Shown one piece after another: positions 47,940 to 55,716 of a DNA stretch of 64,000 nucleotides. Position 1 is the first letter of the stretch, and the number at the start of each line of letters is the position of its first letter. Source of the DNA: Nitrospira sp. (GTDB lineage: Bacteria; Nitrospirota; Nitrospiria; Nitrospirales; Nitrospiraceae); the NCBI GenBank assembly GCA_005116835.1, contig SWDM01000021.1, forward strand, positions 62,001 through 126,000, written 5' to 3'. The notes under the pieces were generated by a model. It was not told the origin of the DNA. It searched no databases and worked only from the letters and a program-made list of their open reading frames with translations. The translations under genes and the position numbers were made by a program.

Positions 47940-48119
47940 TCAGTGATCGATCCGATTCTCGGAGATCAGTTTATCGACCGAGTTGCCGATCACGCGCAAG
48001 CTCTGCTTACCGATTTTAGTCGCGGCCAACTTTCCTTCTTCGACCCACCGATAGACTGTCCAGCGGCTTACATTCAGAACCAGCGCCGCCTCGTTGACCC
48101 TGAGTAATTGCTTGTTCAT
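47940..48119 (-). CDS. Small excisionase-type HTH protein
   Basis: This protein has 59 residues from the ATG at 48119 (CGAGGTCAAG upstream; the longer frame to 48236 lacks support). It is almost only the DNA-binding domain: QLLRVNEAALVLNVSRWTVY, RWVEEGKLAATKIG, QSLRVIGNSVDKLI. It is the closest relative in the window of the HTH protein at 13307-13621. It lies between the receptor gene and exbB on the same strand, 118 bases after the receptor stop. It is probably a local transcription regulator. Confidence 0.75.
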   Translation of the reverse strand: MNKQLLRVNEAALVLNVSRWTVYRWVEEGKLAATKIGKQSLRVIGNSVDKLISENRIDH

Positions 48120-48237
48120 CTTGACCTCGCTTTCTGTCGTCGTCGGACTCATCACATTGTGAGAAGGCATCCGGGGAGGAGGGCGCCTGAAGGACGCCCT
48201 CCTCTCAGCCCGAAATCGCCTTGCGTGTTCCGACAAG

Positions 48238-50568
48238 CTAGAACAGTCCCAGCGTCACACCTCCATAGAAGGCCCGGCCATAGCCCGCAAAGAAAGCCTG
48301 TTGGAGGGCGGCAGCGCCGGCTGTTTCACCCGTGATCACCTGGCCAGATGCGGCGTACTTTTTATCCGCGATGTTGTCCACCTCAAAAAAGATTTTGGCG
48401 AATCGGAACCAGGAGTTGTTCAGCTCGAAATTCTTGTGAATGTTCACATTGGCGACCACATAGGAGGGGATACTAAACGTGTTGCTGTTGTTCAGGAAGT
48501 AGCTGTTGTAATAACTGCCTTCAACCCAGGCGCCCCATCCGGTCGGCCAATGATCGTAGGCGACTTTAGAATTCAAGACATCGGTCGGCACGTTCGGTAC
48601 ATTTTTCCCGTCTCGAACCAAGAATCCGGCTGCGGTATTCACCTGGTCCGAGAAGTTCGTGTATTTGGCGTCAATGTGTGTATAGGCTCCAGTGAGTCGC
48701 AGGCCCGTCGCCGGCCGCCAATCATAGCGGGCCTCGATTCCTCGATATTGAGACGAGTCGGCGTTCACTGTCGCCACGTTCGAACCCGACACCGCTCGCG
48801 AAATCAACTCATCCTTAAAGAACGTCCAGAACCCGACGAGTTCAACCGTCAGGGTCTGGGTCAGCTTGGACTCCGTCCCGATCTCAAAGTTGGCATTTTT
48901 CTGCGGCTTCAGGTTGAAGTTTGTCCCCGGTTGACCGGTGATCGGATCTCTCAGAAGATTGCCGAAACCAGGAATCCCATATCCCGTCGAGGCCCGGACC
49001 CAATGCCGATAGGCCTCCGCCGGTTTCCAACTCAGCGACATTTCCGGCGCCCAGTTGGTGAAGGTTCGGCTTGCGCTGATAGGAGCTGGATTTGCACCGC
49101 CGGTATAGTTAATCGCTTGCACACTCAACATTGATTGCTCGAAGCCTAATCCAGCAGCGAGAATCACTTTCGGCACAATTTCCAGTTCTTCTCGGAATCG
49201 ACCCCCGACGTTCCTGATAGTTCCCCGAGAATTCTGGATGAGGGTTCCCCTGGTGCCTTTGCCGTCGGCGAGGTTCTGAAAGGTTTGTGATTCCTGCTCC
49301 ATATTATTGAGAAAGAAGCCGACATAACTCCGCAACGGCATATCGAAGAGGCGTCCATCGTGCCGAAGATCGGCGTAATGCTTGAAATTCGGATTGACGT
49401 TGTCGCTGATCTGGGAGAAGGTCTGGTTGATGTCTTTGACGTCGTAGTCCGCTTCAAGCGTGAGGACCGTACTTGCATTGATTTGTCGCTCGTAGAGGCC
49501 TCCGACAATGGTGCGCCGATCCAGCCGACGTTGCGCCAGGCGTTCGGAGTCGCTACAAGAAGCGACCGTACAGGTTGCTGCCCCACCAGCCTGCCGATGA
49601 TCGAACGTGAACTGCGATTGCGTCAAACGGGTCGGCACAAAGGTATCCAGCCAATTGGTGATGGCCTTAAAGTAAAAATTCTGCTTGTCGTCGATCCTGA
49701 ATCGAAGATTCAGGTTGATGGTTTGCGTGCTGTAGTTGCTGTGCCTGATATATCCATCTTCACCCACGTTGCTGACGAAGAGGGAGGCGTCGAGATTCTC
49801 ATATTGTTTGCCTACGGCCATAGCCTCCTTGTGGTACCCAAAAGACCCCCCACTCCCAAACATCTCGACCCCATTGATGTCGCTGCCGCGCCGGGTTCTG
49901 AACTGCACCATCCCACCCAGCGCATAGTTATCGTAGAGCGAGGACGAGGCTCCTCGGATGACTTCGACGCTCCGCATAAACCAGGGGTCTTGGATGTCGA
50001 GGCGTGAGAGGCCGTCTGATTGTGTCTGCTGGAATCCGTCTTCGTAAACTTTAATGTCCCGAATGGCGAAGGTCGTCTTGGCGCCTTGGCCACGAATCAT
50101 CATGCTGAAGTCGCGCGGCCCGTTGGCCTGGCGCAAGACCACGCCCGGGAGCGATTCCATCGACTCCTTCATCGTTCTGGTTGGCTGAGAATCCGTTTCC
50201 GACGGATCCGTGGCCGATAACGAGAGGCCCTCCGGCCGTTTTTGAAAGCGTGTGCTCACGATGCTCGTATCGCTCAATTCATATTCGGGTATCGCTCCGG
50301 TGACCTGCGCCTGCTCCGGCGACACCTTCTCAGTGACCGTCTTGGGCTGCTCGGTCGGAGGCAACGTACTTTCACGGCCCTTTTGGAGATCATCCAGCTC
50401 TTGCAAGATGCCTTTGAGCTGTTCACGCAGTTGTTGCTCCCTCGAGCCTTGCTGCAAGGCCTCTGTCGCGGCCGGTTCTTGTGCCAGCGCGACGTGATCC
50501 AGAGCAACAGCACCTCCGAGCGCTGTGATTGCCACAATGATATGCCCCACTCTCTTGAACGACACCAT
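48238..50568 (-). CDS. TonB-dependent receptor with N-terminal coiled coil
   Basis: This protein has 776 residues from the ATG at 50568. The signal peptide ends near VALAQ. Residues 38-64 form a charged coiled coil (QQGSREQQLREQLKGILQEL), unusual before a plug. The plug is recognisable: TMKESMESLPGVVLRQANGP, FSMMIRGQGAKTTFAIRDIK, RSVEVIRGASSSLYDNYALG and GMVQFRTRRG. The barrel follows, ending in Phe (YGGVTLGLF). The same coiled-coil and plug start recur in the truncated protein at 52842-53195, so both come from one receptor subfamily. The ligand is unknown. The neighbouring TlpA and small His/Cys genes lie upstream on the same strand. Confidence 0.87.
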   Translation of the reverse strand: MVSFKRVGHIIVAITALGGAVALDHVALAQEPAATEALQQGSREQQLREQLKGILQELDDLQKGRESTLPPTEQPKTVTEKVSPEQAQVTGAIPEYELSDTSIVSTRFQKRPEGLSLSATDPSETDSQPTRTMKESMESLPGVVLRQANGPRDFSMMIRGQGAKTTFAIRDIKVYEDGFQQTQSDGLSRLDIQDPWFMRSVEVIRGASSSLYDNYALGGMVQFRTRRGSDINGVEMFGSGGSFGYHKEAMAVGKQYENLDASLFVSNVGEDGYIRHSNYSTQTINLNLRFRIDDKQNFYFKAITNWLDTFVPTRLTQSQFTFDHRQAGGAATCTVASCSDSERLAQRRLDRRTIVGGLYERQINASTVLTLEADYDVKDINQTFSQISDNVNPNFKHYADLRHDGRLFDMPLRSYVGFFLNNMEQESQTFQNLADGKGTRGTLIQNSRGTIRNVGGRFREELEIVPKVILAAGLGFEQSMLSVQAINYTGGANPAPISASRTFTNWAPEMSLSWKPAEAYRHWVRASTGYGIPGFGNLLRDPITGQPGTNFNLKPQKNANFEIGTESKLTQTLTVELVGFWTFFKDELISRAVSGSNVATVNADSSQYRGIEARYDWRPATGLRLTGAYTHIDAKYTNFSDQVNTAAGFLVRDGKNVPNVPTDVLNSKVAYDHWPTGWGAWVEGSYYNSYFLNNSNTFSIPSYVVANVNIHKNFELNNSWFRFAKIFFEVDNIADKKYAASGQVITGETAGAAALQQAFFAGYGRAFYGGVTLGLF

Positions 50569-50691: not shown

Positions 50692-51000
50692 TTACGAATG
50701 AGGGGGTGCGCGGGAGTGAGCTGACTGCTGGGAAAGAAGATGCGAGACGGAAGACTCGACCAACGGCAGCATCGACACGAGGTGAAGCGGCTGCGTCTGT
50801 GGCGTGATTATAGAAAAGTCAACGGTTGGATTGGCGTCGCAAGCCCAGGCGCATAGAGAAGAATGTGTCGCTCCACCCTTGTGATGATGGGCTGAGCCTG
50901 GCTGGCTCTCGTGCGCAAAGAGACAGGTCACCGCACCGACCGATAGAGTCAGGTACAGCGTCGCAATGACCAGAGCGAAGGGGACAAAACACTTCTTCAT
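50692..51000 (-). CDS. Small exported His/Cys-rich protein, R-A-P-P C-terminus (DUF2946-like)
   Basis: This protein has 102 residues and an ATG overlapping the thioredoxin-like gene stop (ATGA), so translation is coupled. The N-terminal signal or TM segment (residues 5-27) is followed by H30, H38-H40, H46, C50 and C54 (AHHHKGGATHSSLCAWACD). The end is QSAHSRAPPHS. It is the only family member fixed in a tight operon: truncated receptor - BNR protein - TlpA - this gene - receptor. It may be the metal-binding partner of the thioredoxin, with its two Cys kept reduced by it; this is inference. Confidence 0.67.
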   Translation of the reverse strand: MKKCFVPFALVIATLYLTLSVGAVTCLFAHESQPGSAHHHKGGATHSSLCAWACDANPTVDFSIITPQTQPLHLVSMLPLVESSVSHLLSQQSAHSRAPPHS

Positions 51001-51539
51001 TTCCCGCTCTCCATCGCCTGCCGCATCATCGCCACAGCCTCGGGACTATCCCAGGCGCGAGGCCCGACTGCTCGCCCGACCAACGCGCCATTCATAGCGA
51101 TCACAACTGTGGTCGGAAGGCCGCGCACCATGAAGGACCGTGACACTTCCTGGTCTTCATCGAAGAGCACCGGCAGGCTGATTCCTAACTGAGAGAGAAA
51201 GTGAGCGATGCCTTGGCGCTGGAGATCCGTCGTCACGGTTAACAAGGCAAAGCGTGCAGGGTCCAGCTGTTGTTGCAGTCGCGCGAGAGACGGCATTTCT
51301 TCTTTGCAGGGTCCACACCAGGTGGCCCAAAAGTTGATAAGCACTACTTTCCCGGCCAACTCACTCGACTTTACGACCTTGCCTTCGAGCGTCGTGAGCT
51401 CAAAGGGCGCCGCCATGGTTCCTGCCGGCAACCGGGTCATCTTGAGCGAGACGAAGGGATCGCCGGCCAGCGCGGGACTGATCGAAACAATGCTCATGAG
51501 AGAGAGCAGCGCAGCGACCGAAACGTGTTTCAATGACAT
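50997..51539 (-). CDS. TlpA/ResA-type periplasmic thioredoxin
   Basis: This protein has 180 residues from the ATG at 51539, 7 bases after the BNR gene stop. The signal peptide ends near SPALAGDP. The thioredoxin fold reads APFELTTLEGKVVKSSELAG, VVLINFWATWC75GPC78 and GLPTTVVIAMNG with the cis-Pro. Such exported thioredoxins reduce cytochrome c or copper-site cysteines. Here the coupled downstream gene encodes a small protein with a C-x3-C pair in LCAWACD, a plausible substrate. A second TlpA of this island (54666-55220) is also flanked by small family members. Confidence 0.85.
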   Translation of the reverse strand: MSLKHVSVAALLSLMSIVSISPALAGDPFVSLKMTRLPAGTMAAPFELTTLEGKVVKSSELAGKVVLINFWATWCGPCKEEMPSLARLQQQLDPARFALLTVTTDLQRQGIAHFLSQLGISLPVLFDEDQEVSRSFMVRGLPTTVVIAMNGALVGRAVGPRAWDSPEAVAMMRQAMESGK

Positions 51540-51546
51540 AAGCACG

Positions 51547-52845
51547 TTACGGCTCCTGCTTTGCCAGGACTTTCGACGCCGGCAATTGAAGCGTTTGCAC
51601 CACCATGCGATGAGCCGGCATCGCATGCTCCATCCAGGCTATTGCGGCAAGCCCTTTCGAATTCATTGAGAGGGAGGGTGTCTGGCCTTTTTTCTCATTC
51701 AATTTCTGCGGCGAGCTGAATGACTGTCCACGATCTAGAGAAAGGCTCATCACGATTTCCCGCCTGACAGGGGATTGTTCTTCCCAGACGATCACGAGAC
51801 GACCCTCCGGATCGACCGCCATCTGCGGATGATCGGGGAAGGTTCCCTTGGAGACATTCAGTCTCTGCTTGGGCGAGAAGGTCTCTCCCCTGTCATCCGA
51901 ATAGGCGAGAAACACTGCAGGGGTTTCATCGACGCCTTCGGTGTACCAGACCACATAGAGCCGGCCAAGCCGATCTGTGCCGATTGAGGCAGGGCGATGC
52001 GGGCAGCCGGGGAATACCCACTTGTCGTGGCCGACAATCACCGGCGCAGAAAACGTCTTCCCTCCGTCTGTAGAACGGGCAACGACCGTTTCGCGGACCT
52101 CGCCTGGGAGAACCTTACGCCAGGCTATGTAGAGTGTCGCGTCCGGCCCGGTTGTGAGAGAGGTTCGGCAACAGACACAGGTGTCCTCATCCACTTTGAG
52201 GTTCTTTGAGACGGTGCGTCCACGATCGGTCGAGCGAGTCGTAAAAGTGCCTGATTCTTTCTTGCCTTCCCGTCCATCGATCCAGGCCACATGCACGACG
52301 CCGTCAGGGGCGATATGGATCGAGTCGAAACTGTGGCCGATGATCTGCTCATCGTCGTTCACCAAAATGGACCGTAGAAATGTTTTTCCGCCGTCTATGG
52401 ACCGGCTGAGCCGCAATTCGTTCGAGAAGGGTTTGTCAGGTGTCAGTCTCGGATGGGTCAAGGCCCATGTCAGGAACACGTCAGTTCCGGCCACCGCCAG
52501 CGCCGGTGCTTCTTGCCGCATGTAGGGCGCCTCGGTCGGCTGGTTGACTGTGACCGGGGCCCCGATCGGTCCCTCAATCTTTTCCGCTCTGGCATAGAGC
52601 ACCCTGCGTATCTCCTTGTCCTCTTCCACCCAGGCAAGCGAGATACGACCCTCGTTGTCGATCTGGACGGAAGGCCCGACCACCGCCCGCACTTTGTGAT
52701 CGGTCGTCAACTTCGGACCGAACTGCAACGAGTGATTCGGCTCAGCCAGCGCCATCGGCACGAACGAGACGACGCTGAACGCGACCCCGACCATCCAGGC
52801 CAGTCTCTGAGTGATGATTGTTCGTTCGATCATGGTAGGCCTCAT
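51547..52845 (-). CDS. Exported BNR/Asp-box (sialidase-fold) protein
   Basis: This 432-residue protein has a start that overlaps the stop of the truncated receptor (ATGA); another Met lies four codons later. The signal peptide ends near PMALAEP. The body is a beta-propeller with five Asp-box repeats of the S-x-D-x-G-x-[TS]-[FV] type: SIDGGKTF, STDRGRTV, STDGGKTF, SDDRGETF and SLDRGQSF. A CVCC (DEDTCVCCRTSL) stands between repeats 2 and 3, unusual for the fold and a possible metal or disulfide site. True sialidase catalytic residues (Arg triad, Tyr/Glu) were not identified, so binding rather than sugar cleavage is more likely. It is encoded with a TlpA and a His/Cys protein. Confidence 0.75.
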   Translation of the reverse strand: MRPTMIERTIITQRLAWMVGVAFSVVSFVPMALAEPNHSLQFGPKLTTDHKVRAVVGPSVQIDNEGRISLAWVEEDKEIRRVLYARAEKIEGPIGAPVTVNQPTEAPYMRQEAPALAVAGTDVFLTWALTHPRLTPDKPFSNELRLSRSIDGGKTFLRSILVNDDEQIIGHSFDSIHIAPDGVVHVAWIDGREGKKESGTFTTRSTDRGRTVSKNLKVDEDTCVCCRTSLTTGPDATLYIAWRKVLPGEVRETVVARSTDGGKTFSAPVIVGHDKWVFPGCPHRPASIGTDRLGRLYVVWYTEGVDETPAVFLAYSDDRGETFSPKQRLNVSKGTFPDHPQMAVDPEGRLVIVWEEQSPVRREIVMSLSLDRGQSFSSPQKLNEKKGQTPSLSMNSKGLAAIAWMEHAMPAHRMVVQTLQLPASKVLAKQEP

Positions 52846-53195
52846 TTCGATCCACGAATGGAGAATTGTGTGTCGTGCCCGCCTGAACCTTGCCGCGTGC
52901 TTACCCCCGGCACAGACTCCAGGGATTCTTTCATGCTTCTTGTCGGTTGGTCCGAGAATTCAGACCGTGGAACAGTGGACCGCGCCGTTCCTTCCGGTTG
53001 CGATTGGAGCCGGCGCAACTCACTCTCGATGTTTGCCCGCTCTCGCTGCAGTGTTTGAATCCGTGCCGTCTGTTCTTGTTCGTTCATCACGCCCTGTTTT
53101 TCTTCAGCCCAAATCGGCATAGCCACTATGCCAAAAAAACCCAATACCATGGCGGTTCGCGCTATCTTCAATCCTTGATCCGACATCAGGGACAT
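52842..53195 (-). CDS. Receptor-derived short protein: coiled coil plus start of a TonB plug
   Basis: This protein has 117 residues with a strong ribosome site (GAGGAGGGATTCT). The signal peptide ends near MPIWAEE. A coiled coil (residues 38-66: TARIQTLQRERANIESELRR) is followed by SMKESLESVPGVSTRQGSGG and FSIRGSK, then a stop. This is the same start as the full receptor at 48238-50568 (TMKESMESLPGVVLRQANGP). Everything after the first IRG of the plug is gone. The stop overlaps the BNR gene ATG (ATGA) and TonB is 19 bases upstream. It may be a truncated receptor, yet its signals and coupling are intact, so a retained function as a small TonB-interacting or decoy protein is possible. Confidence 0.65.
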   Translation of the reverse strand: MSLMSDQGLKIARTAMVLGFFGIVAMPIWAEEKQGVMNEQEQTARIQTLQRERANIESELRRLQSQPEGTARSTVPRSEFSDQPTRSMKESLESVPGVSTRQGSGGHDTQFSIRGSK

Positions 53196-53214
53196 AGAAT
53201 CCCTCCTCTCGTGA

Positions 53215-54081
53215 CTAGCCTCCGAGGCTATACACTATCGGGATATACACCGCGACTTCGGACGTGCCGAGCGGTTGATGCATATGGAGCGGGCACACCA
53301 AGCGGATGGATTCTAAGGCCGCGTTATCGAGCGCCTCATGACCGGAGCTTCGATGAACCTTCACCTCAGACAGGTGGCCATCGGCTCGAATGACCGCTCG
53401 AAGCACAACTTTTCCTTCATCACCATTGAGGCGCGCACTGCTGGGATAGCGTTTGATTTCAGCCAGTCTCCGTCTCAGCAATTCGGCCAGCCAGCCATGA
53501 TCAACTTTGACAACGGGAGCTGGACTGGATGCCACTGCCACCTGTGGCGCAGGCTCCTGCACGACAGATTTAGCCGGCTTGGCCAGTTCTGACTCGGCAA
53601 CGACGCTAGACGGTGATTCAACGATGACGTGTTCGGTTTGTTGCTCAACGGTGGCAGCCTGCGTCACCTCCGTTGATTGTTCCTCTTGTACCTGTGGAAC
53701 GATCTCGGTGCTCGGTTGCACCGCCACTGTCTCTTGAATCGGCTGGTTCGTCTCGACCACTTGGCGGATCTCGCGTTGCACAGCCGGCGTCACCTCCCGG
53801 GTTTGTACTTCCTGCGTGACCATTCGAGGCTTACGGGGGGGAGGGACTGCCGGACGTGGAGTTGGCGTGACAGGCTCCTGAGTTGGCTTGGTTTCAGCCT
53901 GAACTGTTTCTTGAATCCGTTGTGGCTCGACCAACGCGACGTCCCACGTGAACACTTCCTTCGGTACGACCGGTTTGACCTGCGCCATAAGTCCGAGGGC
54001 CACGGTCAGTGCCAGGCCGTGAAAAATCCCAGACACCACCCATCCTTGCAGGCGATATTGTCTATTTAGATTGACCATCAT
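53215..54081 (-). CDS. tonB: TonB energy-transducing protein
   Basis: This 288-residue protein has an N-terminal anchor (residues 12-33, GWVVSGIFHGLALTVALGLM) with the Ser-His pair of TonB anchors in VSGIFHG. A long Pro/Glu/Val/Thr-rich periplasm-spanning region (about 50-195) follows. The C-terminal TonB domain is YPSSARLNGDEGKVVLRAVI, RADGHLSEVKVHRSSGHEAL, then AALESIRLVCP. It transmits proton-motive energy from ExbB/ExbD to the outer-membrane receptors encoded here. It is the first gene of the tight operon continuing with the truncated receptor and the BNR protein. Confidence 0.9.
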   Translation of the reverse strand: MMVNLNRQYRLQGWVVSGIFHGLALTVALGLMAQVKPVVPKEVFTWDVALVEPQRIQETVQAETKPTQEPVTPTPRPAVPPPRKPRMVTQEVQTREVTPAVQREIRQVVETNQPIQETVAVQPSTEIVPQVQEEQSTEVTQAATVEQQTEHVIVESPSSVVAESELAKPAKSVVQEPAPQVAVASSPAPVVKVDHGWLAELLRRRLAEIKRYPSSARLNGDEGKVVLRAVIRADGHLSEVKVHRSSGHEALDNAALESIRLVCPLHMHQPLGTSEVAVYIPIVYSLGG

Positions 54082-54307: not shown

Positions 54308-54607
54308 CTATGCGAAGGGTGGCGCACGTGCTGGCGGCTGAACCGTGAGGATAGCACCGATCTGTGGTCCGATACGCTGTTGCGCGAGGAAAATGACCTG
54401 TTCAACAGGGGTGAAGTGGACCGAGGTTCCCTCGACGGCATCGGCAGCGATACAGAGCCATGAACAGAGTGCGGTAGCATGTGTCGCCGCGCTGTGATGC
54501 TCGTGTTGCCCCATGTGGGAAGTGAGCTGCGGGTAGACAATCCCGCTCAGCGCCACAAGCCAGAGGGCAAACCCTGCGATAGCAAATTGTCGAATCATCC
54601 GGCTCAT
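54308..54607 (-). CDS. Small exported His/Cys-rich protein, R-A-P-P C-terminus (DUF2946-like)
   Basis: This protein has 99 residues. A membrane segment (residues 6-26) is followed by H31, H35, H37, H38, H43, C48 and C52 in HMGQHEHHSAATH and LCSWLC. The end is PPARAPPFA. The ligand numbering is identical to the gene at 13842 despite 40 kb between them and different flanks, a strong sign of a real family. It lies 58 bases after the TlpA-type thioredoxin gene, echoing the coupled pair at 50692/50997. No copy of the shared element was found upstream. Confidence 0.67.
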   Translation of the reverse strand: MSRMIRQFAIAGFALWLVALSGIVYPQLTSHMGQHEHHSAATHATALCSWLCIAADAVEGTSVHFTPVEQVIFLAQQRIGPQIGAILTVQPPARAPPFA

Positions 54608-55410: not shown

Positions 55411-55716
55411 TTACAGAGAGAAAGACGGAGGAGCGCGGCTGAGAGAAACCCTGCAAGCCGCGATTGAAGGTTGCGCAGAATGGGGGAGTGCGACGAGTGC
55501 GATCGGACTGAGTTCATCCTGAAACGTGACCACCGCTGTATCGAGAACAGTCCCGGCTGCACACATCCAGGAGCAGAGCAGGGTGCCATGGGTGGCAGCC
55601 TGGTGCTGGGCATGGTGCCCTGCATGTTCGACCGACTGGGCTTGGGCCAATCCGCCTACGGAGAGGAGGCAGAGCACCAGGAGGATCGACAGGTATTTGA
55701 GGGCGCGGTGGTTCAT
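55411..55716 (-). CDS. Small exported His/Cys-rich protein, R-A-P-P C-terminus (DUF2946-like)
   Basis: This protein has 101 residues. The signal (MNHRALKYLSILLVLCLLSV) is followed by H31, H34, H35, H38, H43, C48 and C52 in HAGHHAQHQAATH, then LCSWMC. The end is VSLSRAPPSFSL. It is the last member on this side of the island and stands upstream of the TlpA gene with a 190-base gap. No ribosome site is obvious. Together with 13842 and 54308 it defines the main form of the family, A-T-H-x3-L-C-S-W-x-C. Confidence 0.65.
   Translation of the reverse strand: MNHRALKYLSILLVLCLLSVGGLAQAQSVEHAGHHAQHQAATHGTLLCSWMCAAGTVLDTAVVTFQDELSPIALVALPHSAQPSIAACRVSLSRAPPSFSL

Follow-up and report, generated by a model that had tools for sequence, protein, structure and literature searches.

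The gene described here lies at 53195..52842 on the minus strand of the window, the whole 64,000-nucleotide stretch of Nitrospira DNA that was analysed, and encodes a 117-aa, putatively exported half-plug protein that we label SHORT (52842..53195; supported by its ORF, its orthologues and the selection acting on it). It follows tonB (53215..54081, minus strand; TonB_C, 3e-15), whose stop codon is separated from the SHORT ATG by 19 bases, and a GGAGGG ribosome-binding site (53201..53206, minus strand) ends 5 bases upstream of that ATG; purine-rich sites are found at most orthologues as well. The gene directly after SHORT encodes an exported BNR-repeat (propeller) protein (51547..52845, minus strand; profile match), and its ATG overlaps the SHORT stop as ATGA. 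The preliminary description had reported the 117-aa ORF with its strong ribosome site, the 19-base spacing and the ATGA overlap, and all of these were found again, though the start at ATGA is not itself certain because a second in-frame ATG follows 12 bases downstream. Orthologues in the genus overlap the BNR gene as ATGA or GTGA, with another ATG about 12 bases downstream. The propeller protein carries a CVCC motif and is 80-90% conserved in the genus, and some relatives have a second, more distant copy nearby.

Further along the same strand are a TlpA-like thioredoxin (50997..51626; profile searches), a small His/Cys-rich exported protein (50692..51000; an ORF with no family in Pfam/NCBIfam searches) and TBDT1, the operon's full TonB-dependent receptor (48238..50568; Pfam plug 2e-14, barrel 4e-30), whose nearest solved relatives are YncD/PqqU (1.5e-39). 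The small protein is one of three small exported proteins in the window (50692-51000, 54308-54607 and 55411-55716) that combine a His-rich stretch with a CxWxC-type motif; each lies near a TlpA-like gene and they recur in related operons, and where tested they matched no Pfam or NCBIfam family above cut-off. A short excisionase-type HTH protein (47940-48236) comes after the receptor, as it does in most relatives. No sigma/anti-sigma partner was seen among the identified genes of the operon. Elsewhere in the same genome there is an AMO gene (PF02461; G000:C16:398023-398727), so the host is probably a complete ammonia oxidiser.

Architecture of SHORT and of the full receptor

By inspection, residues 1-30 of SHORT (53106..53195, minus strand) appear to form a signal peptide with likely cleavage between IWA and EE, and its orthologues likewise begin with a hydrophobic stretch and a small-residue cleavage site, suggesting that the protein is exported. 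A helix or coil follows at residues 40-65 (53001..53078, minus strand), with conserved leucines at 49, 60 and 63, and then a half-plug at residues 67-117 (52845..52997, minus strand) that ends in SIRGSK and was assigned from a Pfam match and an alignment to BtuB. Residues 70-116 match Pfam Plug (PF07715) with E = 6e-8 over profile positions 7-53 of 107, which is not a complete plug domain. Pfam gave no match to the C-terminal 22-strand beta barrel, and neither Pfam nor NCBIfam gave a match to the STN domain of FecA/FpvA-type signalling. The predicted structure, of moderate confidence (mean pLDDT 69, pTM 0.25), has two helices, one long and one short, and a beta hairpin, the long helix having a pLDDT of about 85 at residues 41-60; the plug in a monomer model of the receptor had a pLDDT of only 20-30. 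A search of solved structures with SHORT alone returned no significant match. One candidate for a complementary C-terminal half-plug in the same genome (C17:176349-176477, profile positions 56-106) was rejected as a fragment fused to an unrelated C-terminus. This locus (G000:C17:176349-176477; L102 4191-4652, minus strand) is true receptor debris, with a C-terminus resembling a DUF433-like segment and unrelated genes around it.

The layout of the receptor is a signal peptide, a coil, about 45 residues that include a Ton box (DxSIVSxR), a plug and a barrel, whereas that of SHORT is a signal peptide, a coil and the half-plug. Alignments place these parts in TBDT1 (all on the minus strand) at residues 43-66 for the coil (50371..50442), residues 100-107 for the Ton box DTSIVSTR (50248..50271) and residues 112-160 for the half-plug matching SHORT (50089..50235). 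The preliminary description had taken plug segment and coil alike to be shared with TBDT1. The plug match stands, and the coil holds as an element only: both proteins have one of some three heptads directly behind the signal peptide, but the two sequences are not convincingly homologous. The Ton box, present between signal peptide and plug in the operon receptors, is absent from all 19 SHORT proteins that we collected, and four copies have a K/P/A-rich linker in place of this region (all of them type II, see below).

Distribution, constraint and origin

The same short form occurs in six further species of the genus, out of 32, at 59-77% identity. In each case it is flanked by tonB and the BNR gene and precedes the full receptor by about 2.7 kb, and a full receptor at this position was seen in none of the genomes examined. 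A strain-specific truncation or assembly error, which the preliminary description had named as the outcome that would overturn its reading, is ruled out by these six species and by the presence of the same form in other genera. Among 175 Nitrospiraceae genomes, SHORT without an in-frame stop was found in 19 species, one copy in each, spread over nine genera of this one family; one of these copies (G075) has no clear start codon. A search of 396 genomes of the phylum at E <= 1e-6 found none outside the family, the matches there being to full receptors only. All 19 proteins end 1-9 residues after SIRG, with C-termini of SK, TK, SGK, a similar residue pair followed by K, or a glycine-rich tail whose last residue is R.

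Three gene orders were seen. In type I the order is tonB, SHORT, BNR, TlpA, small Cys/His protein and receptor; in type II it is tonB, BNR, TlpA, small protein, receptor and SHORT, with SHORT at most about 15 bases from the receptor in most cases; and in type III it is tonB, SHORT and TlpA2. In one genome (G173) SHORT follows the receptor, but tonB has moved. Every genome with SHORT also carries a full receptor, and the operon is widespread without SHORT too. Co-occurrence of SHORT with the receptor coil was also looked at, with no clear link. In four genomes (G020, G025, G028 and G030) only remains of SHORT are left in the gap between tonB and the BNR gene, such as REESLESVPGVSACQGA in G025, and in three of the four IRGSK is followed by a stop; in three others (G061, G070 and G074) frame changes disrupt SHORT or its N-terminus is missing. 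Since SHORT has been lost or has decayed in several species in which the receptor operon persists, it must be dispensable. Judged by sequence, the decay in these relics looks different from anything in the 19 kept copies. Within the genus an AMO gene is present in five of seven genomes with SHORT and in none of four with relics, although these are small numbers from related genomes, and a link between SHORT and ammonia oxidation was rejected because other genera carry SHORT without AMO.

Within the genus, SHORT has a pairwise dN/dS of 0.19-0.38; in other genera the value for one pair, G170/G171, goes up to 0.58. The constraint is uneven along the protein, with a pN/pS of 0.22 for the half-plug, 0.38 for the coil and 0.68 for the signal peptide, and under random mutation at the observed divergence a stop would be expected in 90-99% of copies. 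A receptor pseudogene should show relaxed selection and no conserved end, and neither was found given the dN/dS of 0.19-0.38 and the common end. SHORT is thus almost certainly a real, conserved and functional gene, and the comparison of sequences indicates that it is an old gene under selection and not a broken receptor. The view that it is a gene kept in a tight operon, already taken in the preliminary description, is borne out by conservation, selection and operon position together.

Selection has also not acted evenly within the half-plug. In receptors the apical loop that links PG to the SIRG strand hardly varies (mean entropy 0.25), while in 13 of the 19 SHORT proteins, those of types I and III, it is relaxed (entropy 1.33, 31% identity to the receptor consensus). 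The same proteins keep 74% identity to that consensus in the alpha1 helix and 83% in the SIRG strand, and both of these elements are conserved in SHORT as tightly as in the receptor. Some fixed residues are specific to SHORT, namely R77, F/L/M80 and a mostly acidic residue 82. With helix and strand kept and the loop relaxed, the constraint appears to lie on the frame of the half-plug and not on its loop, a pattern that favours a docking or frame role over cargo binding.

A tree of the 49 columns from PEG to IRG placed the 19 SHORT proteins on one side of a branch and 65 receptors on the other with support of 80/80, though with so few columns this is not proof. One old origin fits this grouping apart from the receptors. 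Type II copies retain the receptor-like GPRDFN loop. Most likely, SHORT arose by a single partial duplication of the 5′ end of the operon receptor gene, stood beside the receptor at first and later moved to tonB.

The half-plug border and a possible role in gating

The wider question is how TonB-dependent transporters can open while the outer membrane stays tight. A handful of E. coli and Pseudomonas proteins, studied by force spectroscopy and simulation, are the basis for the model of a plug built from two halves. Force spectroscopy divided the BtuB plug into a weak subdomain at 23-73 and a strong one at 73-136 (Hickman et al., PMC5413942), and FpvAI is described as having a comparable plug in two parts (PMC10994204). 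When SHORT is aligned with BtuB from E. coli K-12, IRG falls at residues 68-70 of mature BtuB and the end of SHORT at 71-73; the limits of its half-plug are equivalent to BtuB 23-73. The existence of the SHORT family and this match to the half-plug border are the points of interest. A natural gene under selection whose end coincides with that border would provide evolutionary evidence, of an independent kind, for the half-plug as a unit. SHORT would also be a small and testable reagent with which to study gating, from a nitrifier (judged by its AMO gene), a kind of host in which importer biology has been little studied.

As a class, regulatory or modulatory roles still explain SHORT best. Among the mechanisms we ranked a half-plug acting in trans first, followed by a partner driven by its coil, a TonB decoy and a cargo catcher. 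We give a probability of about 0.35 to the first, in which SHORT would be a Ton-box-less half-plug, putatively exported, that acts in trans on receptor gating. We hold slightly more tentatively to its fuller form, in which SHORT may be the force-labile half-plug split off into an exported protein of its own and working on the gate in trans, an undescribed accessory subunit of Ton-driven import. The mature protein would be a small periplasmic one, in which a short helical coil runs straight into the N-terminal half-plug of a receptor. When the half-plug of the receptor itself is drawn from the barrel by TonB, SHORT could dock in its place against the force-resistant half-plug or the barrel wall and, without being pulled itself, limit leakage or shape opening and re-closing. 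The preliminary description had proposed a regulator or a decoy; its observation of the gene was right and understated, and its interpretation is partly supported.

Some observations put demands on the trans half-plug. According to work cited in PMC11658791, the FepA plug behaves as if unfolded when isolated, so a free half-plug such as SHORT may not fold, and any folded model needs folding to take place on the receptor. In types I and III SHORT adjoins tonB and not the receptor, which counts against this mechanism, as do its loss from species that keep the receptor operon and the modest confidence values of the SHORT model. In G002 and G027 (L028 10590-12980; L031 6678-9008) the operon receptor has been replaced by a type divergent from that at 48238-50568 of the window, at a distance of about 43% from other receptors and 17-20% from each other, while tonB, SHORT, BNR and TlpA remain of the local kind. 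SHORT is therefore not tied to a single receptor type, and a half-plug acting in trans would need a tolerant docking site. The divergence of SHORT tracks that of TonB more closely than that of the receptor, but a control pair, TonB against TlpA, gave an equal value (0.60), so this test does not discriminate between partners.

Less probable than the trans half-plug, though the strongest of its competitors, is that the coil of SHORT pairs with the N-terminal coil of the receptor and the half-plug blocks or spaces the neighbouring Ton box, setting how often TonB engages the receptor. Binding to the receptor's coil had been raised in the preliminary description, and the data neither support it nor speak firmly against it. 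Both proteins do have a coil after the signal peptide, with conserved leucines in SHORT, and the only receptors without one are in G025 and G030, where an intact SHORT has also been lost. Nearly all receptors of the family have the coil whether or not SHORT is present, however, so the receptor coil has another role, and the coil of SHORT is less constrained than its half-plug.

A decoy or brake that binds the C-terminal domain of TonB and lowers the TonB available to the receptor, as the preliminary description suggested, would account for SHORT lying directly after tonB in types I and III. The Ton box is the established TonB-binding element of receptors, and its absence from every SHORT protein makes a simple decoy unlikely; type II copies follow the receptor instead of tonB, and the closer tracking of TonB carries little weight given the control.

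We consider it more doubtful again that the half-plug catches cargo, binding the substrate in the periplasm and handing it to the BNR, TlpA or small Cys/His protein. In BtuB-like plugs the apical loop is expected to face the ligand, and this is the loop that is relaxed in type I and III SHORT though nearly invariant in the receptor. In favour of a catcher, labile half-plugs touch the ligand in BtuB and FhuA (PMC5413942), and ferric enterobactin is bound at 5 uM by the FepA plug on its own (PMC11658791). Debris, or a translation-coupling leader whose protein has no role, is largely refuted and very improbable, as the decayed copies in seven genomes and the overlap of the next gene's start with the SHORT stop are outweighed by purifying selection, open frames with the same end in 19 species, and survival at three places in the operon, at one of which SHORT is not overlapped by a following gene.

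Comparison with known systems

A partial literature search found no report of stand-alone plug proteins, nor of a half-plug gene accompanying PqqU. Compared with the plug of TonB-dependent transporters (PF07715; BtuB, FhuA, FepA), SHORT is homologous over the first half, QPTRxMKESxESxPG...IRG, and is encoded together with tonB and a receptor. It differs in covering only the first ~50 of ~107 profile positions, in having neither barrel nor Ton box, and in being a separate gene. TBDT1 resembles YncD/PqqU over plug and barrel (1.5e-39), but its score against PqqU, 189 bits, is far under the PqqU cut-off of 1200 bits. The force-labile half-plug of BtuB (23-73, PMC5413942) has a C-terminal limit matching that of SHORT at BtuB 71-73, but it sits within the transporter and is pulled via the Ton box, whereas SHORT would be a free protein in which a coil replaces the Ton box. 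A parallel to the proposed action of SHORT is the colicin B N-terminus passing FepA, a separate polypeptide that has been modelled in the gap left by the unfolded half-plug (PMC8546555). Colicin B, however, is foreign, has its own TonB box and shows no homology, while SHORT is endogenous and has no Ton box.
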